Part shown: positions 3,850 to 23,200 of the stretch, one piece after another | How the letters are laid out: every line of letters starts with the position of its first letter | Numbering within the stretch: position 1 is the stretch's first letter | Assembly: GCF_014203755.1 (NCBI RefSeq) | Contig: NZ_JACHJS010000001.1 | Coordinates: 5,828,001-5,892,000, forward strand | Length of the DNA: 64,000 bases | Reading direction: 5' to 3' | Origin: Saccharothrix violaceirubra | Lineage (GTDB): Bacteria > Actinomycetota > Actinomycetes > Mycobacteriales > Pseudonocardiaceae | Notes under the pieces: generated by a model | Databases searched by the model: none | Seen by the model: only the letters and a program-made list of their open reading frames with translations | Told to the model about the DNA's origin: nothing | Made by a program: the position numbers and the translations under genes

Positions 3850-4347
3850 GTGGGCAGGGTGAGCACACAGCCCCGCCTGCGCGCGCCCCGCAACCGGGTG
3901 AGCCGCCGGTCGATCACGCTCTGGACCCTGCACGCCGTGATCGGCTGGGTCGTCCTGCTCGTGCCGCAGGCCGTCGTCTGGATCTTCACGCGGACGACGT
4001 GGCAACTCGGCTTCGTGATCGGCACGCTCGTCGTCGGCATCGCGCACACCCTGGTCATGCCGCGCTGGCGGTACCGCGTGCACCGGTGGGAGACCACCGC
4101 CGAGGCGGTGTACACGCTGGCCGGCTGGTTCACCCAGGAATGGCGGGTCGCGCCGATCTCGCGCATCCAGACCGTGGACTCGAAACGCGGTCCCCTGCAA
4201 CAGCTTCTCGGGTTGTCGACGGTCACCGTGACCACGGCGTCGGCCGCCGGGCCCGTGCACATCGAAGGCCTCGACCACGAGGATGCCGTCCGACTGGTCG
4301 ACGAATTGACCGCGACGACCCAGGCCACGCCGGGTGACGCGACATGA
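3850..4347 (+). CDS. Membrane protein with bacterial PH domain (YdbS-like)
   Basis: A 165-residue protein with two hydrophobic segments (about 24-48 and 50-70) followed by a bacterial PH (bPH2) domain: WRYRVHRWETTAEAVYTLAG, WRVAPISRIQTVDSKRGPLQ, and a strand series ending in VHIEGL. This is the layout of the YdbS family, membrane proteins that work with YdbT-like partners; in Bacillus this pair is linked to resistance to some bacteriocins. An in-frame GTG at 3859 is a possible alternative start. The stop overlaps the start of the next gene by 4 bp, so the two are translationally coupled. Confidence 0.75.
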   Translation: MGRVSTQPRLRAPRNRVSRRSITLWTLHAVIGWVVLLVPQAVVWIFTRTTWQLGFVIGTLVVGIAHTLVMPRWRYRVHRWETTAEAVYTLAGWFTQEWRVAPISRIQTVDSKRGPLQQLLGLSTVTVTTASAAGPVHIEGLDHEDAVRLVDELTATTQATPGDAT

Positions 4348-5864
4348 CCGACCCGAACCTGCCCGCCGCGCCGGAGTACCGCGAGGACGACGACCGGGCC
4401 GGGTGGCACCGGCTCGACGTCCGGATGCTGGTCGTCCGGCCGCTCAACGAACTGCTCGGCCTGATCCCGTTGCTGGTCGGCCTCCTGGTGCTGGGCAACG
4501 GCGACGTGTGGCGCACGGTCGTCAGCGGTGTGGTGATCGCGGCCGTGGTGCTGTTCGGCCTGCTGCACTGGCTGACCACCCGGTACCGGATCACCGACGA
4601 GCAGGTCGAACTGCGCACCGGGTTGCTGGTGCGCAAACGCCTGGCGGTGCCCAGGGACCGGATCAGGTCGGTCGACCTGACCGCCAAACCCGGTCACCGG
4701 CTCTTCGGCCTGTCCGCGATCAAGGTGGGCACCGGGCGTCAGGACAAGCCCGGCGAGGACGGCCTGACCCTGGACGCGGTGACCTCGGCGGAAGCCGAAC
4801 GCCTGCGGCTGTTGTTGCTGGAACGCCGCGCCCCGGACACGACCGCCGACACCGCCGTCGCGGGCACCACTTTGTCCACTTTGGACAAGCGGTGGCTCCG
4901 CTTCGCCCCGCTGACCCTGTCCGGTCTGGTGGCGGTCGGCGCCCTGGCCGGCGTGGTCTTCAACGCGGCGCGTGACGTCGACGTCGACCTGATGAAGCCG
5001 CTGACCGATGCCGCGATCCGCCTGGCCCACGAGCCGGCGACCACGTCGGTGCCGTTGATCGCGGGCGCGGTCGTGACCCTGTCGACGATCGGCTCGCTGG
5101 TGTTCTACGTCGTGCAGTACTGGAACTTCAGACTCACCCGTGAGCCGGATCGGACGATCCGCGTCCGCCGAGGACTCGTGACGACGCGATCGGTGTCGAT
5201 CTCCGAGGACCGCCTGCGCGGCGTGGAGATCCGCGAGCCTTTGATGCTGCGGTGGGGCCGGGGCGCGAGAACGGCGGCGGTGACGACGGGCCTGGGCACC
5301 AAGGGCGCGAGCGACCTCCTGCTCCCCCCGGCACCGGCTCCCGAAGCCCACCGCGTCGCAGCGGAAGTGCTGAGGGCGGAGCGGTCGCCGACCGAAGCAC
5401 CCCTGAGCCCACACCCCACCGCCGCACTGCGACGTCGGATGGTCCGCGCCCTCGTGCCACCGGTGATCCTGACCGGCGTCCTGGCCTGGTCGGCACCTTC
5501 GTGGACCTGGCAGGCGGCACTCGCGCTCACCGCCTTCTGCGCCTACCTGGGCTGGGACCGCTACCGCGCACTCGGACACGCACTGTCCGACGGATACCTG
5601 GTCACCCGCTCCGGTTCGCTGCTGCGGGAAACGGCCGCCCTGCACCAGAGCGGCGTCATCGGCTGGCGGATCAGACGCTCGTACTTCCAACGACGAGCGG
5701 GCCTGGCAACGATTTCCGCGACCACGGCAGCCGGAGACGGCGAGTACCACGTGGTGGACGTGGCGGAACGAGACGGCTTGACCTTCGCCGCCACAGCGGT
5801 CCCGGACCTCCTGCGCCCGTTCCTGATCGAGGACGACCAGAACGACCAGGCCACGCCCGAATAG
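4344..5864 (+). CDS. Large membrane protein with tandem bacterial PH domains (YdbT-like)
   Basis: A 506-residue protein. Pairs of membrane segments (about 34-75, 190-270 and 375-405) alternate with three bPH2 modules. Each module carries the typical run of a strand with TxRYRITDEQVELRTGLL or equivalent, then a basic strand such as KRLAVPRDRIRSVDL, and SVSISEDRLRGVEIREPL in the second copy. The third copy starts near residue 405 (GYLVTRSGSLLRET). This is the YdbT architecture, coupled to the YdbS-like gene by a 4-bp overlap. It probably acts as a membrane complex with its partner. The molecular function is not established. Confidence 0.75.
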   Translation: MTDPNLPAAPEYREDDDRAGWHRLDVRMLVVRPLNELLGLIPLLVGLLVLGNGDVWRTVVSGVVIAAVVLFGLLHWLTTRYRITDEQVELRTGLLVRKRLAVPRDRIRSVDLTAKPGHRLFGLSAIKVGTGRQDKPGEDGLTLDAVTSAEAERLRLLLLERRAPDTTADTAVAGTTLSTLDKRWLRFAPLTLSGLVAVGALAGVVFNAARDVDVDLMKPLTDAAIRLAHEPATTSVPLIAGAVVTLSTIGSLVFYVVQYWNFRLTREPDRTIRVRRGLVTTRSVSISEDRLRGVEIREPLMLRWGRGARTAAVTTGLGTKGASDLLLPPAPAPEAHRVAAEVLRAERSPTEAPLSPHPTAALRRRMVRALVPPVILTGVLAWSAPSWTWQAALALTAFCAYLGWDRYRALGHALSDGYLVTRSGSLLRETAALHQSGVIGWRIRRSYFQRRAGLATISATTAAGDGEYHVVDVAERDGLTFAATAVPDLLRPFLIEDDQNDQATPE

Positions 5865-6590: not shown

Positions 6591-7088
6591 TCAGGTTTCC
6601 CCCTGAGCACTCCCCTGATCCGGACCCTGAACACCGAGCAGGGCCGCACCCTGCCCGGACAGCACGCGTCCCGGCACGTCCGGATCGCAGCCGACCTTGG
6701 CCAACCGGGCGCGGATGGCCGACGCCGAGCGTTCGAGGCGCTTCGCGATCTCCCGCACCAGCCCGCCCGCGGCGGCGCCCGGATCGGCGGCGAGCCACGC
6801 GGCACGCAGCTCCTCGTCCCGCTCCGCGGTCCAGGGCTGGTTGGCGTTGGCCGGGCGGCGGGTTGTCGGCGGCGCGCCCAGCCTCGTCAACGCCTCCAGG
6901 ACCTGGGCCAGGACCTTGCCGACCGGGCCGCCGCCGGACGCGGGCAGGCGCAGCACGCCCTCGGCCACGCGCGCGCCCGCCCGGTCGACCCCGGTCAGCT
7001 CGACCACCACGTCGGGATCGGCGGTCGCCAGCAGGCGGTACGTCGTCGGCCCGATGTCCAGTGTGCTTTCGTACTTCGCTGTCGTCAT
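6591..7088 (-). CDS. Uncharacterised protein with Myb/SANT-like helical segment
   Basis: A 165-residue protein. Residues 1-60 look beta-rich (YRLLATADPDVVVELTGV). Residues about 84-135 (PWTAERDEELRAAWLAAD, then IAKRLERSASAIRARLAKVG) form a three-helix segment like the SANT/Myb or Trihelix fold seen in putative DNA-binding proteins: a Trp-led first helix and an SxxAIRxRL recognition-like helix. The tail is Gln/Gly-rich. A DNA-binding or nucleoprotein role is inferred from this segment only. It lies between the GlsB-like gene and the methyltransferase, all on the minus strand. Confidence 0.6.
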   Translation of the reverse strand: MTTAKYESTLDIGPTTYRLLATADPDVVVELTGVDRAGARVAEGVLRLPASGGGPVGKVLAQVLEALTRLGAPPTTRRPANANQPWTAERDEELRAAWLAADPGAAAGGLVREIAKRLERSASAIRARLAKVGCDPDVPGRVLSGQGAALLGVQGPDQGSAQGET

Positions 7089-7151
7089 GGTGACGACGCT
7101 ACGGTGGGGGTCCGACAGTTCCGGCCGGGAGCGGGCGGGGTGCTCCGGGAG

Positions 7152-8258
7152 TCACTCGAAGGTGTGGCAGAGCGGGCAGGTGGGCACGGTCGGGGCGCCG
7201 CCGGTCAGGTACGGACGCAGGTGCTCGGCGATCGAGCGGGCGAGTTGGGGCGGCACGGCGTTGCCGATCTGGCGGGCGATCTCGACCTTGGTGCCGCACC
7301 AGCGGAACTCGTCGGGGAAGGACTGGAGGCGGGCGGCCTCCAGGTGGGTGATCGGCCGGTCGACGCGGTGGCCGTGTTCGCCGGGTTCCCACTGCGGGTG
7401 CAGGTAGCGGCCCTTCTCCGGCTTGTAGAACTCGGTGCGCACGGTCAGCGACGGCTGGTCCCAGCGCAGGCGGCCCATCACGTCGGTGGTGCCGGTCTTC
7501 TTCTCCCGCCAGCAGCGCGGCATCAGCTCCACCGGCAGGTCGAACCGACCGCCGCCGGGCGGGATGTGCCGGTAGCGCCGCAGCGACAGCGGCGTGGGGT
7601 TGCGGCCGATGTGCAGGTCGGCGCTCTTGTACACGCCGGGGACACGGGTGCCGAGGAAGTCGGTCCCGGTGGCGGGCAGCGCGGTCGTGGCCGGGCGTTC
7701 GGGCAGGCCGTCGAGCACGGCGCGGACGGGGTGCCAGCGGTCGTGGGTGGGCGTGGGCAGCGGGATCGGGCCGATGCGGGAACCGATGACGATCGCGCGG
7801 CGGCGGCGCTGGGGCACGCCGAAGTCGGCGGCGTGCAGGATGCCGGCGCTGAGGTGGTAGCCGTCGATCTCGTCCTTGAGCAGGGCGAACTCGGACGAGG
7901 TGAGGAAGCGGTCCACGTTCTCGATCACGAACACCGACGGGTTCGCCCTGCGGACGAAGCGGAGGTACTCGCGCCACAGGGAGTTGCGGGGGTCGTCGAT
8001 GTTGCGGGAGCCCAGGTTGGAGAAGCCCTGGCACGGAGGGCCGCCGACGATCACGTCCGCTTGTGGGATGTCCTTGTCGCGGATGGTGGCGATGTCGGTG
8101 TGGCGGATGTGGTCTTCGCCGAAGTTGGCCGCGTAGGTCGCCGCGGCGTGGTGGTTCCACTCGACGGCCAGGACCGGGGTGTAGCCGGCCTTGGCGAAAC
8201 CGGAGGTCATGCCGCCGCAACCGGCGAACAGGTCGATCATCGACAGCACACTCGGCAT
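7152..8258 (-). CDS. DNA (cytosine-5-)-methyltransferase
   Basis: A 368-residue protein with the ordered C5-methyltransferase motifs: FAGCGG (10-15, AdoMet binding), GGPPCQGFS with catalytic Cys77, ENV (113-115), QRRRR (150-154) and, near the C-terminus, GNAVPP. The variable region between about 190 and 290 is the likely target-recognition domain. A CPLCH motif at the end (361-365) could be half of a metal site. It transfers a methyl group from AdoMet to cytosine in a specific DNA sequence that cannot be read from the gene. A Vsr-type nuclease gene lies upstream on the same strand, separated by a repeat element. No cognate restriction enzyme is obvious. Confidence 0.93.
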   Translation of the reverse strand: MPSVLSMIDLFAGCGGMTSGFAKAGYTPVLAVEWNHHAAATYAANFGEDHIRHTDIATIRDKDIPQADVIVGGPPCQGFSNLGSRNIDDPRNSLWREYLRFVRRANPSVFVIENVDRFLTSSEFALLKDEIDGYHLSAGILHAADFGVPQRRRRAIVIGSRIGPIPLPTPTHDRWHPVRAVLDGLPERPATTALPATGTDFLGTRVPGVYKSADLHIGRNPTPLSLRRYRHIPPGGGRFDLPVELMPRCWREKKTGTTDVMGRLRWDQPSLTVRTEFYKPEKGRYLHPQWEPGEHGHRVDRPITHLEAARLQSFPDEFRWCGTKVEIARQIGNAVPPQLARSIAEHLRPYLTGGAPTVPTCPLCHTFE

Positions 8259-8301
8259 GCTAGCCGTGGGACGTGTCGCTTGACGTCGAGGTCGGGTTTC
8301 C

Positions 8302-8426
8302 TGCTTTCAAGCGGTCGCTCGCCGCTGGGCAGGCCGCCAGAGAGGTTCCGTCGTGGGTCGTCTGCCATGCTGCCGGTGCTGCGCACAGGGTTCCGTGCGC
8401 GCGGGTAGCGGGGCTGGTCCCGAACG
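8302..8426 (-). repeat. Intergenic composite repeat, copy B
   Basis: Reverse complement of copy A at 6024-6148: blocks 8302-8338, 8345-8360 and 8365-8377 match copy A, and both copies are adjoined on the same side by a 22-bp repeat array. Copies A and B thus form a long inverted repeat around the GlsB-like, SANT-like and methyltransferase genes. Confidence 0.8.
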
Positions 8427-8514
8427 CGCGAGTCGTCCACTCGGACACCGCGAGTTGTGCGTTCAGACACCCTGAAATACGCACTCAGACACCGCGAGTT
8501 GTGCGTTCAGGCAC
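8427..8514 (+). repeat. 22-bp tandem repeat array, copy 2
   Basis: Four consecutive 22-bp units at 8427-8448, 8449-8470, 8471-8492 and 8493-8514, the second being close to consensus (core TGTGCGTTCAGACAC). The last unit overlaps the 3' end of the vsr-like gene and supplies its TGA stop codon (8507-8509). Confidence 0.9.
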
Positions 8515-8986
8515 TCTCGGCGGGTGGGCCTGGGGTGTGTCGGGTGGTCGGCGGTTTGCGGCGTTCACCGACCGCGGCCAGGACGCGGATGGCGGCTTCG
8601 GCCGGGTCCTCGTGTTCCCACACCCGCACGGCCAGCCAACCGGCCTCCTCCAGGACCCGGTCGGTGTTCAGGTCGCGGGACTGGTTGGTTTCGATCTTCT
8701 TGCGCCAGAACTCGCCGTTGCGCTTGGGCCACGTCCCGTGGGTCGGGCAGCCGTGCCAGAAGCAGCCGTCGACGAACACCGCGACCTTCGCCGGGCCGAA
8801 GACCACGTCGGCCTCGCGGCGTACGGCCTTCACAGGGCGGCGGTGGACGCGGTAGCGCAAGCCCAGCCGGTGCAGTTCGCGGCGCAGGGCCACCTCGATC
8901 CCGGTGTCGCGGGAGCGTTGCCTGCTCATCCTGGCGCGGACCTCGGCCGTGGTCTCCAGTTGCGGCACGTGTCCATGATCGCTCAT
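8507..8986 (-). CDS. vsr: Very short patch repair (Vsr) endonuclease
   Basis: A 159-residue protein of the usual Vsr length. Visible motifs: MSRQRSRDTGIEVALRRELH (the conserved N-terminal region), READVVF with metal-binding Asp60, and VFVDGCFWHGCPTH with Asp73, His78 and His83. WPKRNGEFWRKKIETNQSRD is also typical of Vsr. The enzyme nicks DNA 5' of a T in a T:G mismatch that arises when 5-methylcytosine deaminates, protecting sites modified by a C5-methyltransferase such as the one downstream. Its start overlaps the stop of the 239-residue gene by 4 bp. Its stop codon falls within a 22-bp repeat unit. Confidence 0.92.
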   Translation of the reverse strand: MSDHGHVPQLETTAEVRARMSRQRSRDTGIEVALRRELHRLGLRYRVHRRPVKAVRREADVVFGPAKVAVFVDGCFWHGCPTHGTWPKRNGEFWRKKIETNQSRDLNTDRVLEEAGWLAVRVWEHEDPAEAAIRVLAAVGERRKPPTTRHTPGPPAESA

Positions 8987-9702
8987 GACGGGTACAGCAC
9001 CTTCCTCAGCCTCCGGACCGCCCGGTCCAGGCCGGCCCGGTCGGGGACGGTCACGGCGCCGATGCGGTCGTGGGCGGTGATCTTCAAGTCCCCGAAGAAG
9101 AACGGGGGCATGGCGTGCACCAGCAACGCCTCCGCACGCCGCCGGCCGCCGCGCAGGTCGAGCACCAACCGCCCCACCCACGCGTCGACCTCGAACACCA
9201 GGTCCGCCAACGGGTGCACGCGGACGTCCAAGCCGTACCCGCGCAGGACCGCGAGCACGTACATGTCGGCGAGGAACGCCGTGTAGTCGGTGAGCACGCG
9301 TCGTCGCACGGCACGTGCGACCTCACGCGACCCGCCGGCCGCCAGTTCCCGCGCGGGCTCCCACAGCAGCGACCGTGCACGGTCGTCGACCCGGCAGAAC
9401 TCGCGGAACCCCGGCCAGTCGGGTAATCGGCCCAGCACCTCGACGGCCCGGTGCGCGACGACGCCGGACGGCGCGCGCCAGGCGTCGACCTCGGGCACCG
9501 GGCACGGCGGGCCGGGGTCGGGTGCGCTACGGCACGCGGCCTCCGCCGCGTCGACGGCGATCCGGTGCACGACGTGCGCCACGTGGTCCATCAGGTACGG
9601 CATCACGATCTTGTCGTCGCCGTGCCGGCCGTTGAAGCGGTAGCGGGTCTCCTGCGTCACGTTGAACAGTCGGCGGACGTCGAGGGCGGTCACGGTCGTC
9701 AT
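8983..9702 (-). CDS. Unknown protein coupled to vsr
   Basis: A 239-residue protein from ATG 9702; no family recognised. It is mostly helical, with N-terminal TALDVRRLFNVTQETRYRFNG, a central DYTAFLADMYVLAVLRGYG and a possible strand pair VFEVDAWVGRLVLDLRGG. No P-loop, HNH or clear PD-(D/E)xK motif can be seen, although the FEVD...VLDLR area could hide a diverged nuclease core. The 4-bp overlap with vsr shows that it belongs to the methyltransferase/Vsr group, so a restriction, effector or accessory role is plausible but unproven. Confidence 0.7.
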   Translation of the reverse strand: MTTVTALDVRRLFNVTQETRYRFNGRHGDDKIVMPYLMDHVAHVVHRIAVDAAEAACRSAPDPGPPCPVPEVDAWRAPSGVVAHRAVEVLGRLPDWPGFREFCRVDDRARSLLWEPARELAAGGSREVARAVRRRVLTDYTAFLADMYVLAVLRGYGLDVRVHPLADLVFEVDAWVGRLVLDLRGGRRRAEALLVHAMPPFFFGDLKITAHDRIGAVTVPDRAGLDRAVRRLRKVLYPS

Positions 9703-9835
9703 GCCGGGGAGGGTACGGACGGGGTCCGACGATTCTGGTCCGACAGGGCGGGGCAACGGATTCCCATCGAATGGGTAACCCGCGCGGACCGTTCTGCTCC
9801 AAGCGGGTGAACCTGGTACTCGAAGCGGTTTTCGG

Positions 9836-12800
9836 ATGTTTTCATTCATCTTCGGGGACGTGCTTGCCGCAGGGCATTACCGGAAGTTTTGGAGACAGCA
9901 GTTGGACAGCTCCGGGAAAGATGGCCAATTACTGGACAGACTGGCCGACCAAGTGGTCGAACTCGCCGCACTTGCCGGTGAAGTCGCAGGTCAGCTACGT
10001 TGTGCCGCTGACGCGGTCGAGTCGGGTGTAACACCGCCGGACCCGCTCGCCGATAGGCTGGACGACTACCTCGAACGCCGCCGTTCGACGTTGTCGGCGG
10101 TCGCCTTCGAGACCGGCCGTGAAGTCCCGGCGGACTTTTCCGGTGCGCACGCGGAAATAAGCTCCGAGCGCAATCGGAGAACGGACCTCGAACGCGCCGC
10201 CCGTGATTCCGCGGTCGTCCGGCTGCGGGGCGAGGTCGCCGATCTGGACCGCATGATCGGCACCGCGACGCCCGCCGTGCGCGACCACCTGCGTGCCGCC
10301 CGCGACGCCGCCCTCGACCGCCTGACCGAGTTGGGCGTGCAGACGGAGGCGAAGGCGACCACAGGCCCACTGACGGACGACGGGACCCGAGCGCCGGCGG
10401 CGACGGGTCCGACGGACGCGGCAGCTCCCGGCACCGGAGCACCGGAAGCACTACCGGCCACGGCCGGAAACCTTGACGCGGAACCGGAGGCCGAGCCGAC
10501 CGCGATCCGACCCGCGGAGCCGGAACCCGTCACCCACCACGAGAACGCGGACGACCTGGCCTTCCCCTGGGAGGTGGGCGACCCGCCCGCCGTCGTCCGA
10601 CTCGTCCGCACCGGCGCGTTGGCCGAGGCGTACTGGCTCACCTCGTGCTCCGGCGAACCCGACCGGCGCACGGCCGCGCTGAAGTTCGCCACCGACGCCT
10701 TCTCCCACCAGGACGGCACGGCCGTGCTGACCACCCTCGGCCTCGCCCCCGACGACCTGGTCGACGACCACGACGCCGCGACCCTCGTCCTGGTCGCCCT
10801 GCTGCGGGCCGGGCTCGTCGCGGGCTGGGGGCACCAGACGTCGGGACGGCTGCGCCCGGCCGTCACGTTGCCCGCCGCCTGGGCCGAACTGCTCGACGCC
10901 GCGGTGGACGCCACCCGACGCGGCGTCCGCGTGGACCCCGTACTGGGCATGAAAGGCGTGGCCGTGGACGGCGACGCGGTCCGCGCCGAGATCGGCGCCA
11001 AGGCCCGCACGCTGCTGGCCGAACTCCCCCGCCGCAAGACGATCTACCAGCGCGCGTCCAAGGTGCTGCGCTGGTTCCTGCGCACCGACCAGCCGCTGCA
11101 CGGCGCGCTCGTGGCCGTCACGGGCTGGGCGGCGGGCGAGGTCGACGCGGCCACGCTGTCCGCCGCGCTGGCGGCGGTGGCGGACCGGGACGCGTTGATC
11201 GACGCCGCCGACCTGGCCACCCGCGCGCCCAAGCAGCGGGACGCGATCATCGCCGACGCCCGCCGCATGCTCGTGCGCAACATCGACGAGGTGGTGGCGG
11301 TCGTCACCGAGGCCCTGCTGGTGGACGACCGGCTCGGGGTCGACGGCCGGACCTCCGAGGCCGAGGCGTCGCTGTCCAAGGCGTTCCAGGCCGTGGCGGA
11401 CGTGCCCGTCCCCGACGGCGTGGCCGGTGCCGCCGTGGCCCTGTTGCGCCGCTGGCTCGACCGGCCCGCCGCGGTGCCCGCCGGGCCACCCGACGCGGAC
11501 GTGCTCCTGCTCCTGCCCGACCTGCCGCGCACGACCGACGGCCGGCCCGACGCCGACGACCCGCGCACGCTGCCCCTGCTGGCCACGCTCGCCGGTCCGC
11601 TCGACCACGCCGCCGCCGGCACCGCCTACTTCGAACGCGGCGACCTGCGCCGGGCGGCCCGGCTGCTCGACCTGCTCGACGCCCGGGGCGAGCGGGTCGA
11701 CCACCTGCGCACCGGACTGGAGCACTGGACCGAGGTGTGGACCGGTCGGCACGCGGCGGCCGTGCGCGCCGCCGCCGACCTGCTCGCCCGCGTCCGAACG
11801 CAGAACCTCCTGGAGGCCGACGAACGGCTGGTCAACAACCGCCTGCACGGCCTGGGCACCGTGTCCGACGGCCGTTTCGACGTCGCCCGCGCCGACCTCG
11901 CCGAGCTGACCGACGAGCTGCGCCGACGGGAGCACCGCCGCACCGAGGCCCTGCGCGCCGAGGTGCGCCGGGCCGAGCTGTCCGACGCCGACCGCACCCG
12001 GATCACCGGTCTGCTCGACGAGGGCGACTGCGTCACCGCCACGGAGTTCGTCGCGTTCGCGCGCGCCGGACGCCCGCTGCCCGACCACCTGCCCGAGGCG
12101 GTCGGCGATCTCCAGAACTTCGTGTCGCTACTGGGCAAGGGCGCCGAGGAGGGCCTGCCCCGACCCGAGTCGGCCAAGACCTGGGCCCGGCTCGCGGTCG
12201 GCGACAACGGCCTGCTCACGTCGGCCGAGACCGCGCTGGACGCGTGGGATTCGCTGTCGGTGGGCCGCAACTTCAGCGCCGACCGGTTCCAGGGCTCGGT
12301 GCGCACGGTCCTGCGCCTGCTCGGCCTGGTGTGCGAGGGCGGCACGAAGGAACGCGGTCCCCGCGGCGGCGTCCGCACGGTCCGCGTGCGGGCCCACCCC
12401 AACGACGGCTCGTACGTCGCCGAACTCGGGTCCGCCGCGACCGAGTACACCGTCGTCGTGCTCACCGAGGAGTCCCGGGGCCGGTCCGTCCTGGACGGTC
12501 TGGACGCGCTCACGTCCGGCCGCGCCAACGTCGTGCTCTGCCTGCACCCGCTGGACCTCGCGGCCCGCCGCGCGCTCGCCGCACGCGCCCGGCGGGGCAC
12601 GCCGCACGCCATCGTGATCGACGCGTCCGTGGTCGGCTACGTGGCCGCGACCGCGCCGGGTTCGTGGCGCACCACGCAGCGGATCACGTTGCCGTGGGCG
12701 GCTTTCAACCCGTACCAGCCGTTCGTCGCCGGTCTCGTGCCGCCCGAGGTGTTCGTGGGCCGCGAGGAGGAGCTGTCGGAGGTCGTGGACCCCAACGGCG

Positions 12801-14758
12801 GTCTGTTCGTCTACGGCGGCCGGCAGCTGGGCAAGTCCGCGCTGCTGCACCGGGCGCGCAAGGACTTCGACGACGGCGAGGCGCACCACGCGATCTACCT
12901 GGACCTGAAGGGCCGGGGCGTGGGCGAGTCCGAACCGGCGGCGCGCATCTGGCGGGAGCTGACCATCGAGTTGAAGGCCCGGGGCGTGCTCGGCCAGCGG
13001 GTGTCCAACGACGCCGGCGCGTCGGTCGTGGTCGACCAGGTGCGGGCGTGGCTGCGGGTGAATCCGGCCCGGCGGATCCTGCTGCTGGCCGACGAGGCGG
13101 ACGCGTTCCTCACCGCCGACTCGCGTGCCACGACGCAGTCCGGCGGCATCGCGTACTTCCCGAACGTGTTGCGGCTCAAGGACCTCATGGAGTCGACCGA
13201 CCGCCGGTTCAAGGTCGTCTTCGCCGGTCTGCACCAGGTGCAGCGGTTCCGCGAGCTGCCCAACGTGCCCGTGGCGCACGGCGGCCCGGACATCCCGATC
13301 GGCCCGCTGCGCCCGGCCGACGCCCGCCGGCTGGTCGTCGAGCCCATGGCCGCGCTCGGCTACCAGTTCGAACGCCCCGAGCTGGTGTGGCGGCTGCTCG
13401 CCGCGACCAACTACCAGGCGAGCCTGGTGCAGATCTTCTGCGAGGAACTGGTCCGCACGCTCCAGTCCCGCGGCCTGGCCCCGACCACGCCGCCGACCTA
13501 CGTCACCGAGGCGGACGTGGACGGGGTCGCCGCGAGCGACCTGGTGCGCGGTCGGATCGCCGAACGCCTGCGGATCACGATCAACCTGGAGGACCGGTAC
13601 CGGGTGCTGGCCCTGGTGATCGCGTGCCGCAGCGTCGACGACGCGTTCGCCGTGGCCTACCCGGCGGACGAGCTGCTGCGCGGCGCGCGCGAGACGTGGC
13701 CCGCGGGCTTCGACCGGATGACGGTGTCCGAGGTCGGCGTGTACCTGGACGAGATGGTCGGCCTCGGCCTGCTGATCCGCTTGACGGACCCGGTGCGCTA
13801 CGCGGTCCGCAGCCCGAACGTCGTCACCATGCTGGGCACGCGCGCGGAACTCGAACGCGAGCTGGCCGAGATGGACTTCGACATGCCCTACGAGTACAAC
13901 CCCCGGGCCGCGCGCCGACTGCTGGAGGAGCACCAGGGCGCCGAGCTGCGCAGCCCGCTCACCGACGGCCGGTTGGCGGCGGTGACCACCGCGCACCACC
14001 TGGCCGTGATCACGGGCACGCGGGCGTTGGGCGTCGACCGCGTGCCGCAGGCCGTGCGCGACTACGCCGAGGTGCGCGGCAGCACGGTCACGAAGGTCGC
14101 GCCGGCGGGCGTGGTGGGGGCGTTGACGACGATCTCCCGGCGCACCGAGCCCAGCGTGCTGGTCACCGACGTGACCGGGATCGACCGGGTCGAGGCCGAG
14201 CAGGTGGTGCGCCGGCTGGTCAAGCAGGTCGCCGTGCAGAACCTCGCCGTGGTCGTGCTCGCGCCGCCGGAACTGGCGACCGGGCTGGCGGAGCTCGCGG
14301 GCGCCGAGCCCGAGCACCCGCGGCGGTGGACGGTCGACACGATCCGGAGCTGGCCCGAGTGCCCGTTCGACGTGCCGCGCGCCCGCCAGGCACTGATCGA
14401 CGCGACCGGCGGCTGGCCGGAGCTGGTCGAGGACGTCGTGCTGCGGGTGCGGCGTGGCGCCGCGCAGGCGCAGGCGTTGGCGCAGTGGGTGAAGCGCACC
14501 GCGCAGCCCGAGCAGGCCCGACGGCTGCTCGCGGAACGTGGTGTCGACGCCGCGCTGGTGCGCCGGCTCGGCGACTGGCACCGGTACGTCGAGCCCGGCG
14601 ACCGGTTGTTCCCGGCGGACATCGCGGTCGCCGTGGGCGTCGACCTGGACACGGTCAACGCGCTCGTCGACGACCTCGACCTGATCGGCCTGCTCGACAC
14701 CGGTCCGGACGGGATCGCGCTGGACCGGGTGGTGCACCGGTGCCTGCTCGCGACGTGA
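9836..14758 (+). CDS. Giant STAND-type ATPase, candidate defence sensor
   Basis: A 1640-residue soluble protein. Order: a helical/coiled-coil N-terminus (about 1-165), a Pro/Thr/Ala/Glu-rich linker (165-235), a long helical region (235-940), then an AAA+/STAND module. The module is introduced by NPYQPFVAG...PPEVFVGREEEL and has Walker A GGRQLGKS with Lys1000, Walker B LLLADEADAF with Asp1086-Glu1087, a sensor strand (KVVFAGLHQVQRF) and winged-helix/lid segments. A second module without P-loop follows (degenerate LVTDVTGID near 1443-1450, lid-like ATGGWPELVED). Duplicated ATPase-like modules on helical repeats fit STAND switches, known from immunity and signalling. The first few hundred bases are visibly less GC-rich. 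The stop overlaps the next gene (GTGA). Confidence 0.8.
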   Translation: MFSFIFGDVLAAGHYRKFWRQQLDSSGKDGQLLDRLADQVVELAALAGEVAGQLRCAADAVESGVTPPDPLADRLDDYLERRRSTLSAVAFETGREVPADFSGAHAEISSERNRRTDLERAARDSAVVRLRGEVADLDRMIGTATPAVRDHLRAARDAALDRLTELGVQTEAKATTGPLTDDGTRAPAATGPTDAAAPGTGAPEALPATAGNLDAEPEAEPTAIRPAEPEPVTHHENADDLAFPWEVGDPPAVVRLVRTGALAEAYWLTSCSGEPDRRTAALKFATDAFSHQDGTAVLTTLGLAPDDLVDDHDAATLVLVALLRAGLVAGWGHQTSGRLRPAVTLPAAWAELLDAAVDATRRGVRVDPVLGMKGVAVDGDAVRAEIGAKARTLLAELPRRKTIYQRASKVLRWFLRTDQPLHGALVAVTGWAAGEVDAATLSAALAAVADRDALIDAADLATRAPKQRDAIIADARRMLVRNIDEVVAVVTEALLVDDRLGVDGRTSEAEASLSKAFQAVADVPVPDGVAGAAVALLRRWLDRPAAVPAGPPDADVLLLLPDLPRTTDGRPDADDPRTLPLLATLAGPLDHAAAGTAYFERGDLRRAARLLDLLDARGERVDHLRTGLEHWTEVWTGRHAAAVRAAADLLARVRTQNLLEADERLVNNRLHGLGTVSDGRFDVARADLAELTDELRRREHRRTEALRAEVRRAELSDADRTRITGLLDEGDCVTATEFVAFARAGRPLPDHLPEAVGDLQNFVSLLGKGAEEGLPRPESAKTWARLAVGDNGLLTSAETALDAWDSLSVGRNFSADRFQGSVRTVLRLLGLVCEGGTKERGPRGGVRTVRVRAHPNDGSYVAELGSAATEYTVVVLTEESRGRSVLDGLDALTSGRANVVLCLHPLDLAARRALAARARRGTPHAIVIDASVVGYVAATAPGSWRTTQRITLPWAAFNPYQPFVAGLVPPEVFVGREEELSEVVDPNGGLFVYGGRQLGKSALLHRARKDFDDGEAHHAIYLDLKGRGVGESEPAARIWRELTIELKARGVLGQRVSNDAGASVVVDQVRAWLRVNPARRILLLADEADAFLTADSRATTQSGGIAYFPNVLRLKDLMESTDRRFKVVFAGLHQVQRFRELPNVPVAHGGPDIPIGPLRPADARRLVVEPMAALGYQFERPELVWRLLAATNYQASLVQIFCEELVRTLQSRGLAPTTPPTYVTEADVDGVAASDLVRGRIAERLRITINLEDRYRVLALVIACRSVDDAFAVAYPADELLRGARETWPAGFDRMTVSEVGVYLDEMVGLGLLIRLTDPVRYAVRSPNVVTMLGTRAELERELAEMDFDMPYEYNPRAARRLLEEHQGAELRSPLTDGRLAAVTTAHHLAVITGTRALGVDRVPQAVRDYAEVRGSTVTKVAPAGVVGALTTISRRTEPSVLVTDVTGIDRVEAEQVVRRLVKQVAVQNLAVVVLAPPELATGLAELAGAEPEHPRRWTVDTIRSWPECPFDVPRARQALIDATGGWPELVEDVVLRVRRGAAQAQALAQWVKRTAQPEQARRLLAERGVDAALVRRLGDWHRYVEPGDRLFPADIAVAVGVDLDTVNALVDDLDLIGLLDTGPDGIALDRVVHRCLLAT

Positions 14759-15927
14759 ACCCGGCGGAACTGCCCGGCACCCGCGCGCACCTGGACCGGG
14801 TCTCGGCGGACCTGGACGCGGGCTTCACGTGCCTGTGGCTGGTGCCGGACGCGCTGGTCGCGTCCGGCACCGCCGAGGACCTGCTGTCCCGGCTCGCGGC
14901 CCGCTCCGACAGCGCCCGGGTCGACCCGCCGGGCGCCCTGGAACGCCGCGTCGTCGCCGCGCCGCCGCCCGACGCCGGCGAGCCGCCGGACTGGGCGGTC
15001 GGGCACCCGGCGTTCGAGGACCCGGTCGTCACGCCCGAACCCGTGCTGGTGCCCGCGATCCGACTGGTCGACCGGGTCTCCCGGGTGGTCGACGACGAGG
15101 GCTTCCCGCTGGCCGTCGTGTGCGCGTGGGAGGAGGACGACCCGGACGCGGTGGGCGCGCTGCTGTCCCGCATGTCGGCGGCGGGCGGCCCGGCACGGGC
15201 ACTGGTCGCGGCCCGGCCGCGTGACGTCCGGTCCACCGCGCCCGACCCGCTCACCACCCGCACGCACTGGTGGTGGGGCGTGGTCGGGCGGCTGGACACG
15301 GCCGTGGCCGTCGCCGCGCACCGGCCGCCCGGTCCGGGCCTGCGCGACCTCGTGGCGCACGAGGTGCTCGTCGAGGTGGCCGGTCCGGACCTCGACCTGG
15401 CCGCGGACCTCGCGGTGGCGTGGGACGGCGAGCCGGAGTCGTTGGCGGACGTGGTCAAGGCCGTGGACGGCCCGCCCGTGCCGGACCGGCGGCGCGACGG
15501 CGCCCGACGTCCGCCCGCCGACCTGCTCGACGCGTGGGAGTGCGGCCTGGTCGACCTGTGGGAGGGCCGGGTCCGGGTCAGTCCGCGCGCGGTGGGCGAC
15601 CGGCGCGAAGCCGTGCTGCGGTCGTTGGTGTGGCGGGCCCAGCACCGCGCGCTGACGCCCGTGCTCGACGTGGGCCGGGCCGAGGTCGAGGCGGTGTTCC
15701 GCACGCGGGCGTCCACCGCCGTGCTCGCCGAGGTCTCGCCCGATCCCCAGGCGGCGCTGGAACTGGGGCCCATGCACTGGGCCGCGACGACCGGCCGCCG
15801 CGTCACGCTGCCCGCCGCCGAGCGCGAACTGCTGTGCCGGCTGCGGGCCGCGCGCAACGCGCTGGCCCACCTCACCCCGTTGTCCGGCGCCGACCTCGAC
15901 CGACTCGACGGGGTGTGGACGCGCTAG
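14755..15927 (+). CDS. STAND-coupled protein with C-terminal HEPN-like motif
   Basis: A 390-residue protein starting at GTG 14755, which overlaps the stop of the STAND gene by 4 bp; this fixes the start although the frame is open much further upstream. The N-terminal third (FTCLWLVPDALVASG...) and the middle (IRLVDRVSRVVDDEGFPLAVVCAWE) look like alpha/beta folds without a P-loop. The end is helical and contains LRAARNALAHLTPLSGADL: Arg367-Asn-x-x-x-His372 matches the RNxxxH signature of HEPN ribonucleases, in the style of Swt1-type HEPN domains. I infer an effector or toxin controlled by the STAND partner. The final 56 bp overlap the convergent DUF2786 gene. Confidence 0.75.
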   Translation: MNPAELPGTRAHLDRVSADLDAGFTCLWLVPDALVASGTAEDLLSRLAARSDSARVDPPGALERRVVAAPPPDAGEPPDWAVGHPAFEDPVVTPEPVLVPAIRLVDRVSRVVDDEGFPLAVVCAWEEDDPDAVGALLSRMSAAGGPARALVAARPRDVRSTAPDPLTTRTHWWWGVVGRLDTAVAVAAHRPPGPGLRDLVAHEVLVEVAGPDLDLAADLAVAWDGEPESLADVVKAVDGPPVPDRRRDGARRPPADLLDAWECGLVDLWEGRVRVSPRAVGDRREAVLRSLVWRAQHRALTPVLDVGRAEVEAVFRTRASTAVLAEVSPDPQAALELGPMHWAATTGRRVTLPAAERELLCRLRAARNALAHLTPLSGADLDRLDGVWTR

Positions 15928-17032
15928 GCCGGTCCAGGTCCGCGCGGTCGGCCGCCGACCGGCCCGCGGACCACCCGGCCTCGCTGCGGATCGGCGTGGA
16001 CCTGCTGACCGTGCGGGTGAACAGCGTGCGGTAGAGCGTGTCCACGGCGGTCTTGCGCGCGGCGAGCACGGGCAGCAGCCGGTCGTCGTCGGTCGCCGTG
16101 GCCGCCCGCAGCCTTTCGCCGACGCGGTGCGCGTAGGACAGCAGGAACGCCTTGCGGAAGTCGCCGCTGCGTTCCTCGTCGCCCTTGCGCGCGCCGTCGC
16201 CCGCCGCGACCATCGCCCGGGTCGCCTGCACGAGCAGCGACGCGGACATCAGCTCCACGATCTCCAGGTCGAGTTCCTCGCCGACCAGCGCGACGAAACC
16301 GGGGTTGCGGTAGACGACCGCACGCGACCGGTTGGCCTCCGCGACGACGTGCACGATGTGCGCCTTGCCGTCGAAGTACCGCTTGTCCAGCCACAAACGC
16401 CGGGACACCGTCGTCGGCTCCTCGGTCGGCATGCGCTCCAGGGCGTGCCGCGTGACGAGTTCCTGCGCCTTGGCCGACAACGCCTCGGCCTCGTCCGGGT
16501 ACGGCGTCGACTCGGCCTTGGCCAGCAGCCCGCGCACCCGGTTGAGCACGCGCGGATCGACGCCGCGGTGGTCGAGGCCGACCAGGGGCGAGCCGGGCTT
16601 GGGCACGATCACCGGCAGCACCGGCAGGGCGCGCAGCACGCGCAGGATCGCGACGGTCGCGGCCAGGGCGTCGTCGAGGGTCTCGATGTGCCGGGACGCC
16701 CACTGGTCGACGTGCGGGCGGTCCGCGTCCCACCACACGTCGGCGCCGATGTCGGCCACCTGCCCGCGCCACACCGGGTGCAGCGCCTGGCCGGCGACGT
16801 CCCGGGCGACGGCGTCGACGAGCAGCGACCGGGCGCGCTCGTCCTCGTCGCGGCGCACCACCTCGTGCACGTCGTAGGGCAGCCAGCCGTGGTCCCACAG
16901 GTCGTGCAGGGCATCGGCGAGAACCCCGTGCACGGCGTCCTCCACTTCGGTCGCGGGCAGGTCGCCGGCGCGGGGCGGGCGTGCCTTGCGCGTGGCGGCG
17001 GCGTGCCGCAGCGCCTGGCTCAGGGGGTCCAC
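15872..17032 (-). CDS. DUF2786-domain protein
   Basis: A 386-residue protein from GTG 17032 (GGGGAG about 10 bp upstream). Residues about 180-220 carry the DUF2786 helical motif (VRGLLAKAESTPYPDEAEAL then KAQELVTRHALERM). The following part has FDGKAHIVHVVAEANRSRAVVYR and a helical segment with HRVGERLRAA, as in the longer members of this family. DUF2786 proteins occur in actinobacteria and phages; their biochemical role is not known. The gene converges on the STAND-HEPN pair with a 56-bp overlap and diverges from the next gene with only 67 bp between starts, so it may share regulation with that gene. Confidence 0.75.
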   Translation of the reverse strand: MDPLSQALRHAAATRKARPPRAGDLPATEVEDAVHGVLADALHDLWDHGWLPYDVHEVVRRDEDERARSLLVDAVARDVAGQALHPVWRGQVADIGADVWWDADRPHVDQWASRHIETLDDALAATVAILRVLRALPVLPVIVPKPGSPLVGLDHRGVDPRVLNRVRGLLAKAESTPYPDEAEALSAKAQELVTRHALERMPTEEPTTVSRRLWLDKRYFDGKAHIVHVVAEANRSRAVVYRNPGFVALVGEELDLEIVELMSASLLVQATRAMVAAGDGARKGDEERSGDFRKAFLLSYAHRVGERLRAATATDDDRLLPVLAARKTAVDTLYRTLFTRTVSRSTPIRSEAGWSAGRSAADRADLDRPSASTPRRVGRGRRRTTG

Positions 17033-17099
17033 GGTGCCCGATTCTCCCCGTTCGGGTGCACGGCGCGCGGACCGGCGTCGGACGTGCCAGCCTCGCGCG

Positions 17100-17771
17100 G
17101 TGAGCCGGAAGATCCAGTACCGCACACGGCGGCCGATCGCGGTCGCCGACCGTCCACAGGGGACTCCGCTGAGCCCGGCGCAGCGGCTGTTCGTCGACCG
17201 GTGCCGGGAGCTGCCGCAGCTCGCCGACCCGCTCGACGTCGAACTGACCGTGGGTGCGGCCGTGGCGGACCTGGACGTCGACGAGGAGTTCTGGGCCGGG
17301 GTCGTGGCGCACGTGGCGTCGTGGCCGAGCCGGCGCAACGTGGCGCTGCTGCGGGCGTTGGCCGTGCTGCTGACCGGTCGGCCGCGGGACTGGGCGGTCG
17401 AGGCGGCGGGACCGGTCGGGTCGACGTTGCGCGTCACCGGCGCGTGGACGTGCGACCGGTCGTTGGACGCGGGCTACCTGGTCCTGTTGTGCCGTTACGC
17501 GTTCAGCGCGCGGGAGCACGCGATGGTGTTCCTGATCGACGAGGTCGAGGGCGGGTTGGTGCGCGGCGCGTTCGTGACGCGTCAGGTCGAGGTGGCGCGC
17601 GAGCGGTTGGCCCGGCAGGCGCCGCTGGACGCGATCGGCGCCGAGGCGGCGCACTGGCTGCTGGCCAAGTCCTACGACCGGCTCGACCGCCGGCCCGACC
17701 TGCGCGTGGGAGACGACGTCCGCAGTACCCGGCTGCCGGCGAAACGACGTATCGCACTGGCTTTCGGGTGA
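17100..17771 (+). CDS. Unknown protein divergent from the DUF2786 gene
   Basis: A 223-residue protein; I choose GTG 17100 because the frame upstream overlaps the divergent gene. It begins with a basic stretch (SRKIQYRTRRP), is largely helical (VAHVASWPSRRNVALLRALAVLLTG; WLLAKSYDRLDRRP) and has a beta-type middle (LVLLCRYAFSAREHAMVFLIDEVEGG). No known motif. Divergence from the DUF2786 gene across 67 bp suggests a functional pair. No genes follow before the tRNA-Lys insertion site. Confidence 0.6.
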   Translation: MSRKIQYRTRRPIAVADRPQGTPLSPAQRLFVDRCRELPQLADPLDVELTVGAAVADLDVDEEFWAGVVAHVASWPSRRNVALLRALAVLLTGRPRDWAVEAAGPVGSTLRVTGAWTCDRSLDAGYLVLLCRYAFSAREHAMVFLIDEVEGGLVRGAFVTRQVEVARERLARQAPLDAIGAEAAHWLLAKSYDRLDRRPDLRVGDDVRSTRLPAKRRIALAFG

Positions 17772-19996: not shown

Positions 19997-20341
19997 ATGA
20001 CATTCGCTGAGCTTGCCGACGAACGGCCCTACCTGCGGGAGGTGGAGCCTCCGCGTTCGTTCCGGTTTTCCGACTCCAACCCGTTGACCTCGGACACCTA
20101 CGCCCGGTCGGCGTTCCGGGACCTGCCCGCGTTCGTGGGCACGGTGGTGGAGAACCGCCTGGACCTGAGCGCGGACGAGTGGGACGCGCTGGTGGAGGAC
20201 GGGGAGGTCTACGACTTCGTGGGCCCGGATGAGGTGTTCTGGGTGCGGCGGACCGCGTCGGGTTGGTGGTCGCGGCGCTGGCCGCATCCGGGGTGCGAGG
20301 TCGTGGACCTCGACGACCCCAGTGGGGCGGCGTGGGTCTGA
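19997..20341 (+). CDS. First gene of the rep-int operon, unknown acidic protein
   Basis: A 114-residue protein from ATG 19997 with AAGGG about 7 bp upstream. It is acidic, with a Trp-rich C-terminal half (DEVFWVRRTASGWWSRRWPHPG). No family recognised. Similar small genes precede the rep gene in many actinomycete integrative elements, where they are thought to be regulatory or accessory. Its stop overlaps the next start (TGATG), so translation is coupled. Confidence 0.65.
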   Translation: MTFAELADERPYLREVEPPRSFRFSDSNPLTSDTYARSAFRDLPAFVGTVVENRLDLSADEWDALVEDGEVYDFVGPDEVFWVRRTASGWWSRRWPHPGCEVVDLDDPSGAAWV

Positions 20342-20532
20342 TGGCGGTCGTCGAGGTCGTCTGCGCGGGGTGCTCCGGGTCGGGGACGAGTGCCCGGTCG
20401 GTCACCGGTTGGTGTGGCGGGTGCGCTGGTCGTGGCCGCTACGAGGTGTTGGACCAAGCAGGCACGCGTGCCGTGGAGCGGGAGGAGACGGCGGCGTGGC
20501 TGGCGCGTCACGGGGCGGGGGTGGCGGTCTGA
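20341..20532 (+). CDS. 63-residue zinc-knuckle-like protein
   Basis: ATG 20341 overlaps the stop of the previous gene and the TGA of this gene overlaps the start of rep. The product has CAGCSGSG and CGGCAGRGR segments, i.e. two CxxC pairs about 17 residues apart of the DnaJ-type zinc-knuckle style, then a helical end (REETAAWLARHG). A metal-stabilised nucleic-acid or protein-binding role is likely. In the usual AICE order this position would hold a small regulatory or excision gene, but no MerR/Xis-type helix-turn-helix is seen. Confidence 0.65.
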   Translation: MAVVEVVCAGCSGSGTSARSVTGWCGGCAGRGRYEVLDQAGTRAVEREETAAWLARHGAGVAV

Positions 20533-21878
20533 TGGGCGTGTCCGCACTGGTCCCGCGTCTGTCCACTACAGACGAACGGTTGCGGAACTTCTTGCGTGCC
20601 AACGGGTACCGGTCGTGGCGGCGTCGGGTCGAGGCCGTGCACGGCTGCGCCAAGCCGGTGCGGCTGGCGGGGTCGACGCGGGTGGAGGACACCACGACCG
20701 GCACGGTGTTGGACGGGTTCGAGGGGTCCTTGCTGGTGCCGTGCGGCAACCGGCGGGAGTCGGTGTGCGAACCCTGCTCGGCCCGCTACGCCGCCGACAC
20801 CTTCCACCTGGTCCGGTCCGGGCTGACCGGCGGCAAGGGCGTGCCCGGGACGGTGTCGGGGCACGTGCGGGTGTTCGCCACCCTCACCGCCCCGTCGTTC
20901 GGCGCGGTGCACAACCGGCCGCGTACCCGGTCGGGCAGGGCGCGGCGGTGCGGGTGCGGCGGGTTCCACCACGAGGCGGACACCCGGCTCGGGACGCCGT
21001 TGGACCCGACGGCCTACGACTACGTGGGCGCGGTGCTGTGGCAGGCGCATTCCACCGAGCTGTGGCGGCGGTTCACCATCACGGCGGCCCGGCACCTGGC
21101 CTCCGCGCTGGGACTGCGGGTCGGCGAACTGCGGAACCACCTGCGGGTGTCCTATGCCAAGGTCGCCGAGTACCAGCGGCGGGGCCTGGTCCACTTCCAC
21201 GCCGTCATCCGCGTGGACGGACCCCACGGCCCCGACTCCCCGGCCCCGGCGGCGGTGACCGACGACCTGTTGTGCGCGGTGGTGCGTTCCGCGGCTGCCT
21301 CGGTCACGGTCGACACCGAGCACACCGACGACATCCCCGCGCGCACCCTGACGTGGGGGACGCAGATCGACGCCGAGCCCATCGCCGTGCACCAGGCCGG
21401 CGACCCCGCCGAACTCGTGCACGACCGGCGGGTGGCCGGCTACATCGCCAAGTACGCCACCAAGGGCACCGGGGCCACCTCCGGCGTCGACTCCCGCATC
21501 CGACGTGAGGCGGCCATCGACGACTTGGAGGTGTCCGGGCACCACAAGGCGATGATGCGCACCGCGTGGCGGCTGGGCGGGCTGGCCGCGTTCGCCTCGC
21601 TCAACCTGCGGCGGTGGGCGCACATGCTCGGCTTCCGGGGCCACTTCCTGACCAAGTCACGCCATTACTCGACCACCTTCACCGCGCTGCGGGCCGCCCG
21701 CGCCGAACACCGCCTGGCCGAACACCTCGACCGGCTCGGCGTCACCGACGGCTCGACCGTGCTGGTGGTCGGGGACTGGTCCATGACCGGCGTGGGCTAC
21801 CGATCGGATGCCGAACGCGACCTGGCCGAAGGCATCGCCACCCGCAAACTCGCCCGACGAACCGGGAAGGAGGATTGA
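20532..21878 (+). CDS. RepSA-like rolling-circle replication initiator
   Basis: A 448-residue protein. The HUH metal motif is seen in RRGLVHFHAVIRVDG (His221, His223). A candidate catalytic tyrosine region is VAGYIAKYATKG (Tyr304/Tyr308). Cysteine pairs occur near residue 71-82 (CGNRRESVCEPC) and 140-142 (CGC). This is the pattern of the RepSA family from pSAM2 and related actinomycete elements, which nick the double-strand origin and start rolling-circle replication of the excised circle. Length matches the family (about 450). It is coupled by 1-4 bp overlaps to genes on both sides. Confidence 0.88.
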   Translation: MGVSALVPRLSTTDERLRNFLRANGYRSWRRRVEAVHGCAKPVRLAGSTRVEDTTTGTVLDGFEGSLLVPCGNRRESVCEPCSARYAADTFHLVRSGLTGGKGVPGTVSGHVRVFATLTAPSFGAVHNRPRTRSGRARRCGCGGFHHEADTRLGTPLDPTAYDYVGAVLWQAHSTELWRRFTITAARHLASALGLRVGELRNHLRVSYAKVAEYQRRGLVHFHAVIRVDGPHGPDSPAPAAVTDDLLCAVVRSAAASVTVDTEHTDDIPARTLTWGTQIDAEPIAVHQAGDPAELVHDRRVAGYIAKYATKGTGATSGVDSRIRREAAIDDLEVSGHHKAMMRTAWRLGGLAAFASLNLRRWAHMLGFRGHFLTKSRHYSTTFTALRAARAEHRLAEHLDRLGVTDGSTVLVVGDWSMTGVGYRSDAERDLAEGIATRKLARRTGKED

Positions 21879-23047: not shown

Positions 23048-23096
23048 TCAACCGGCATAAAGGTAGGGTTTCGGTCGGCGCCGCTCATTAACGCAA

Positions 23097-23126
23097 AAAC
23101 CCCCAGGCCATTGACCTGGGGGGTTT
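23097..23126 (-). terminator. Element-borne terminator for tRNA-Lys
   Basis: Stem AAACCCCCAGG with CCTGGGGGGTTT (one bulge), followed on the minus strand by a T-run. It begins 1 bp past the tRNA 3' end and lies inside the element, replacing the displaced terminator at 18029-18071. It can also end the int transcript from the other side. Confidence 0.7.

Positions 23127-23200
<74 letters not shown>

Follow-up and report, generated by a model that had tools for sequence, protein, structure and literature searches.

The stretch of DNA analysed, referred to here as the window, comprises 64,000 nucleotides of the Saccharothrix violaceirubra contig NZ_JACHJS010000001.1 (positions 5,828,001 to 5,892,000). 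Two coupled genes in it encode a giant STAND protein and a smaller partner with a predicted HEPN domain. The pair is real and well conserved; it probably serves as a counter-invader module and adds a further example to a known kind, not a new kind. All coordinates are positions of the window unless a locus number is given.

The gene pair

The features of the pair are as follows.

9836 to 14758, forward strand: giant STAND protein, 1640 residues, switch and presumed sensor (open reading frame; Pfam and 11-row alignment)
12653 to 13858, forward strand: predicted active nucleoside triphosphatase (NTPase) core of the giant, residues 940-1341 (AAA_22 in relatives; Cdc6/ORC profile matches)
12815 to 12838, forward strand: P-loop GGRQLGKS (residues 994-1001), including K1000
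13091 to 13096, forward strand: Walker B, Asp1086-Glu1087
13940 to 14755, forward strand: C-terminal module of the giant (residues 1369-1640), CED-4-like fold without a P-loop in a structure model of moderate confidence
14755 to 14758, forward strand: GTGA, stop of the giant overlapping the start of the partner
14755 to 15927, forward strand: partner, 390 residues, GTG start, predicted P-loop-less STAND-like domain and C-terminal HEPN
14755 to 15549, forward strand: degenerate AAA+/STAND-type domain of the partner, about residues 1-265 (model)
15580 to 15924, forward strand: HEPN-type domain of the partner, residues 276-390 (profile and model)
15853 to 15870, forward strand: RNALAH, an RX4-6H motif (R367-H372)

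The original prediction, made from the letters and reading frames, had named this gene pair together with K1000, D1086-E1087 and RNALAH, and all were read in the sequence as it had given them. Its statement that the two genes are coupled through the overlap was likewise borne out, an ATGA or GTGA overlap being present in 7/7 relatives printed; in loci L019 and L020 the genes are separated by a gap of a few bases.

Relatives of both proteins were collected from genome and plasmid scans. The GK of the P-loop and the DE of Walker B were invariant in the giant, both in the 11-row alignment (11/11) and in a wider set (16/16), and AAA_22 was found in 16/16 diverse relatives at E<=0.1. On the window protein Pfam gave ATPase_2 at residues 973-1090 (E 0.0039) and, with the core scanned alone, nSTAND1 (E 2e-5), each below its cut-off. 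A profile search of PDB with the core returned 21 matches, among them Cdc6/ORC chains (best E 1.8e-6) and PH0952, with Dap3 not named among the 21. The core was also ORC/Cdc6-like in a structure model of moderate confidence, and R1137, a candidate arginine finger, was invariant in 11/11. Walker A and B, AAA_22 and the model point to an active STAND core in the giant. Its C-terminal module was not detected by sequence profiles, and no significant profile-profile homology was obtained among the core, this module and the N-terminal domain of the partner. A PDB sequence search with the alignment of the giant gave four weak matches, resembling coiled coil or helical repeats.

The AlphaFold2 model of the partner (predicted local distance difference test score, pLDDT, 85) showed an AAA+/STAND-like domain that lacks a P-loop, followed by a C-terminus made up of helices only (helices 281-318, 321-327, 337-345, 354-371 and 378-389; block pLDDT 85-96) with RNALAH at a helix end. 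P-loops were likewise absent from the partner alignment (11 rows), and the N-terminal domain is modelled as a STAND module whose NTP-binding motifs are eroded. Structure prediction had been proposed as a check on the HEPN assignment; the helical C-terminus and the position of the motif agreed with it, and HEPN was absent from the fold-search lists of the whole model, which were filled by the AAA+ part. A PDB sequence search with the partner alignment gave no match.

The R, N and H of the motif were invariant in 11/11 rows; among 18 aligned partners R and H were invariant and N nearly so, as is expected for catalysis. A motif of the form RN...H arose in 0.45% of 20,000 shuffles anywhere in the protein and in 0.03% within the last 40 residues. 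The Pfam family HEPN_Swt1 was matched in 9/11 partner homologues at E<=1 (best 1.5e-4). In hhalign, the HEPN part scored 84% over 49 columns against four Swt1-like HEPN stretches (three above and one below the Pfam cut-off), with 0.1% for the reversed control. Profile and model thus support a Swt1-like, HEPN-type C-terminus, and the partner probably cuts RNA. The candidate arginine finger of the partner, R179, was invariant in 11/11 rows, but not in all 18 of the wider partners. The reading of the locus as a STAND protein paired with a HEPN protein is upheld by the invariant Walker motifs together with the HEPN profile and model.

Insertion site and relatives

Comparison with other Saccharothrix species delimited the pair as a discrete inserted cassette in a genus-typical cluster.

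9739 to 15934, no strand: insertion relative to congeners, 6.2 kb, comprising the two genes and about 97 bp upstream (blastn against congener loci)
8983 to 9702, reverse strand: left flank, genus-conserved gene of 239 residues, no family assigned, adjoining the Vsr and methyltransferase genes
15872 to 17032, reverse strand: right flank, DUF2786 protein, last codons replaced at the insertion boundary

By blastn, homology to the congeners breaks off at 9721-9738 on the left side and is found again from 15932-15936 on the right. These edges lie 24-41 bp apart in congeners L090, L091 and L092, where the DUF2786 and 239-residue genes directly adjoin. At the right edge the insertion swaps the C-terminal residues of DUF2786, which in congeners ends in NLSIT or NLSVG; the 3' end of the window gene extends in antisense into the partner gene (15872-15935). 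No integrase was called within the 6.2-kb insert.

Eight congener loci had been fetched via the gene at 4344-5864, itself present in 25/25 genus genomes. The cluster of DUF2786, the 239-residue gene, Vsr, methyltransferase and a 165-residue gene was present, whole or in part, in 6/8, with the pair absent there; the L088 stretch stops where the cluster would begin, and in L093 the cluster was not found. In another species of the genus the pair lies at a different place (L095) and the methyltransferase cluster (L096) is without it. Since methyltransferase, Vsr and DUF2786 are typical of the genus without the pair, the cluster is not part of the pair's system; the three genes were rejected as members, and the view that they form the pair's own island falls with them.

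Counts from the genome surveys are lower bounds, because scoring was generally confined to a few best candidates in each genome (the genus search excepted); the samples overlap and include the source genome. The partner was found in 4/25 genus genomes, at least 4/298 order genomes, at least 6/296 phylum genomes (two of the six spurious) and at least 8/394 class genomes (four of the eight being weak matches to the HEPN end: G849, G481, G794 and G787). The giant core was found in at least 6/246 phylum genomes, one match being weak. The original prediction had named a housekeeping cluster with order-wide conservation as evidence against itself; none was seen at these genus and order frequencies.

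Pairing was recurrent. A contig scan with the full giant yielded six named loci (L012-L017; two each from Saccharothrix, Lentzea and Saccharopolyspora), and the partner adjoins the giant in 6/6. The giant adjoins the partner in 6/6 strong partner matches that were opened (L018, L019, L020, L023, L095 and L105), a count that leaves out the weak matches G849, G481, G794 and G787. Two other weak matches, G259 and G207 (L021 and L022), were rejected as spurious, with no giant found there. Searches of plasmids with the partner, and of NCBIfam and PHROGs with the pair, returned nothing.

Searched with the C-terminal 707 residues of the giant, plasmids gave 27 matching records, and a Salinibacter query likewise gave 27; these span Actinomycetota, Rhodothermota, Cyanobacteriota and Pseudomonadota. 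Seventeen loci were opened, leaving out ten records (further Bradyrhizobium, Azospirillum, Methylocystis, Streptantibioticus and Streptomyces, and three partial Sinorhizobium). A partner of the inactive STAND (iSTAND)-HEPN type follows the giant in 8/17 (L024, L026, L027, L030, L031, L032, L049 and L051). An additional C-terminal AAA_33 kinase-like domain is present in the partners of L030, L031 and L049 above the Pfam cut-off and of L032 below it, and in the same first three the giant also contains the X, MID and RNaseH domains of pPIWI-RE, each scoring above its Pfam cut-off.

L030:885-10187, L031:426-10196, L049:1-10175: STAND giant-pPIWI-RE fusion followed by an iSTAND-HEPN-AAA_33 protein, on alphaproteobacterial plasmids

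Ten genes neighbouring the pair in relatives were picked by eye, and PADLOC recognised 8/10 of them, two being without a match. Directly upstream of the pair of Lentzea xinjiangensis lies a complete Wadjet system (L017:867-8958; JetA2, B2, C2 and D2 models). The other recognised neighbours lie near L014 and L018 (OLD/GajA-like ATPases), L032 (an E1-E2/JAB-type protein) and L051 (a GajB-like helicase).

Relation to described systems and proposed mechanism

Kaur et al. 2021 (PMC8195603) predicted a mobile two-gene operon, nSTAND2, that encodes two STAND NTPases. Their nearer relatives were given as CR-ATPase, Dap3 and RNA12 rather than the classic STANDs, each protein carries a conserved arginine finger, and the inactive one is most commonly fused to GT4 or a HEPN RNase. 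The present pair resembles it in being a mobile two-gene operon with two predicted STAND cores, of which the one without NTP-binding motifs bears the predicted HEPN RNase. Adjacency and mobility are evident from the gene overlap, the 6.2-kb insertion, the occurrence at other sites and the plasmid copies, and the effector fusion from the C-terminal HEPN of the partner. The pair therefore matches nSTAND2 by description in four features, sequence identity with the published examples being unproven. It differs in that GT4 was not among the partners scanned, and no GT4 domain was found by Pfam in partners or following genes (the following genes of L050, L052 and L053 left out). Two STAND-like modules in one giant and the pPIWI-RE fusion do not appear in the passages on nSTAND2 that were consulted. 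Among open-licence PMC papers no experimental test of a STAND-HEPN or nSTAND2 system was found, and outside Kaur et al. 2021 the term nSTAND2 occurred in an unrelated chemistry paper only.

Anantharaman et al. 2013 (PMC3710099) listed Swt1-like HEPN domains fused to a STAND ATPase, and also to TPR and S1. Their fusions share with the pair a Swt1-like, mostly active HEPN and a STAND NTPase, and are single polypeptides, whereas the pair is two coupled genes with the HEPN on the degenerate STAND. With nSTAND2 predicted and these fusions listed, the description of the system as undescribed is not supported. What stands of the original prediction is the STAND and HEPN assignment, the coupling and the conflict-system character.

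BREX-related type 1 (PMC12839542) combines a DUF499 ATPase, often fused to HEPN, with a methyltransferase and a helicase; an ORC/Cdc6-like ATPase with a HEPN effector is common to both. The pair differs in having no constant methyltransferase or helicase, the nearby methyltransferase belonging to the separate genus-conserved cluster. At E<=1 the pair had no match to an Avs model of PADLOC. In Avs (e.g. EfAvs5, SIR2-STAND, PDB 9jap) it is the active STAND that carries the effector, unlike the arrangement found here. The X, MID and RNaseH domains of the three alphaproteobacterial giants are those of pPIWI-RE systems, described by Burroughs et al. 2013 (PMC3702460) as standing alone or in a three-gene neighbourhood. 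No fusion to a STAND giant or to a HEPN partner was found in the passages of that paper that were consulted, and the words HEPN and ATPase are absent from its main text; the pPIWI-RE module on these giants is new here. The nuclease and kinase-like domain in one chain (iSTAND-HEPN-AAA_33) recall Las1-Grc3 (PMC10942766).

On balance we read the pair as a mobile counter-invader module made of two genes and of nSTAND2 type, in which an activated giant and its STAND-like partner would switch on a HEPN RNase. In favour of this are the invariant motifs of both proteins, the modelled fold and HEPN profile of the partner, the recurrent pairing, the clean insertion, a patchy distribution among genomes, the plasmid relatives and the defence-type neighbours of relatives. 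The N-terminal helical part of the giant may act as the sensor of the invader. Its ORC/Cdc6-like core would bind and hydrolyse NTP and serve as the STAND switch, on which the P-loop-less STAND-like domain of the partner would dock to give a mixed assembly. Such an assembly could pair the C-terminal HEPN domains, so that the R367/H372 RNase would cut RNA and stop growth of the phage or, in an abortive outcome, of the cell. HEPN RNases are typically dimeric (PMC13092281), which fits activation by assembly.

Several observations weigh against this reading. The function of the pair is a prediction from sequence and models. HEPN_Swt1 scored below its cut-off on the window partner (E 0.0057; 17.4 against 27.5 bits), and hhalign of the giant core against the partner N-terminal domain gave 0.2%, the degenerate STAND fold being seen in the structure model alone. 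The ten neighbours, chosen by eye, do not constitute an enrichment test. PADLOC (2023 library) gave no convincing match to the pair (Specificity_I in the giant, E 0.00056; none in the partner), and no relative was found on viral contigs. An iSTAND-HEPN partner was not detected in 9/17 plasmid loci with a giant (L025, L028, L029, L046, L047, L048, L050, L052 and L053); in L028 a PLD-helicase follows the giant, L029 is listed with 895 residues, and in L046 and L047 the giant is split over several frames. Of two further loci, chromosomal and found with the core, L044 has a 2030-residue helicase as neighbour and no partner, and L045 a 427-residue neighbour with RNNVSH that the profile missed.

It is possible, and we hold it as a tentative alternative, that the pair belongs to a modular alarm platform that is widespread and either differs from the published outline of nSTAND2 or is much broader. 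A constant STAND giant would there carry exchangeable N-terminal sensors (helical in actinobacteria, nucleic-acid-guided pPIWI-RE in alphaproteobacteria) and work with exchangeable effectors (iSTAND-HEPN, iSTAND-HEPN-kinase-like and unrelated proteins), a mixed assembly of active STAND and inactive STAND-HEPN switching on RNA cleavage.

Another reading concerns the window copy, which may be impaired, as its giant is without the 150-190 or so N-terminal residues found in close relatives (region 9836-10400); the copy of Saccharothrix sp. NRRL B-16314 is an example of a full-length one. An in-frame stop lies 19 codons upstream of the ATG, and the insert leaves only about 97 bp before it. This would suit a decaying, 5'-truncated remnant whose frames are intact and which has no working sensor. 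We regard this as unlikely: the long frames of both genes (1640 and 390 codons) are uninterrupted and their motifs conserved, and the length of the giant varies across the family.

Still less credible is a selfish stabilising module, in which the giant would restrain a HEPN toxin and loss of the pair, not phage, would trigger killing. Tight coupling of the genes, carriage on plasmids (the 27 records above) and mobility as a bare two-gene cassette are in keeping with it. Against it, an NTPase of 1600-2000 residues with long helical regions is far above known antitoxin size, defence genes lie beside several relatives, and genes other than HEPN follow the giant in some other lineages. Least probable is a non-catalytic HEPN sensing RNA for a giant that would be the effector or scaffold, as inactive RNA-sensing HEPN was proposed for eukaryotic Swt1, which is described as having lost the motif (PMC3710099) whose R and H are conserved in all 18 partners here.

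STAND switches that license toxic enzymes connect immunity in bacteria with the resistosomes of plants and the apoptosome of animals. Here switch and effector would reside in two proteins that the degenerate STAND probably couples, so that simply removing genes could test the activation step. To judge by the pPIWI-RE fusions, the same STAND switch may also accept an Argonaute-like sensor. Of what the analysis adds, the clean empty site, the N-terminal domain missing from the window copy and the relatives that bear pPIWI-RE are the most useful.

Neighbouring genes

The genus-conserved cluster occupies 6591-9702 and 15872-17771 of the window and comprises the methyltransferase, Vsr, the 239-residue gene, DUF2786 and a 223-residue gene. 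The best PADLOC match of the methyltransferase was the DruM model (E 7e-118); the 239-, 223- and 165-residue proteins had no Pfam match at E<=0.01.

Farther along, genes at 19997-23047, read as a putative replication protein and an integrase, end beside tRNA-Lys (23127-23200) and were unmatched in the congener loci. The region 19997-23200 is probably an integrated element unconnected with the pair; it was rejected as carrier of the pair, which the insertion boundaries exclude.

In two genus genomes the pair has as divergent neighbours an AAA/Mg-chelatase-type gene and a vWA gene (L012:5803-9119 and L095:1686-5002; Pfam on L012 only). Gene order and strands suggest that the window segment of about 6591-28430, between the genes at 4344-5864 and 29866-32559, is inverted when compared with congeners, for instance L090 and L091.

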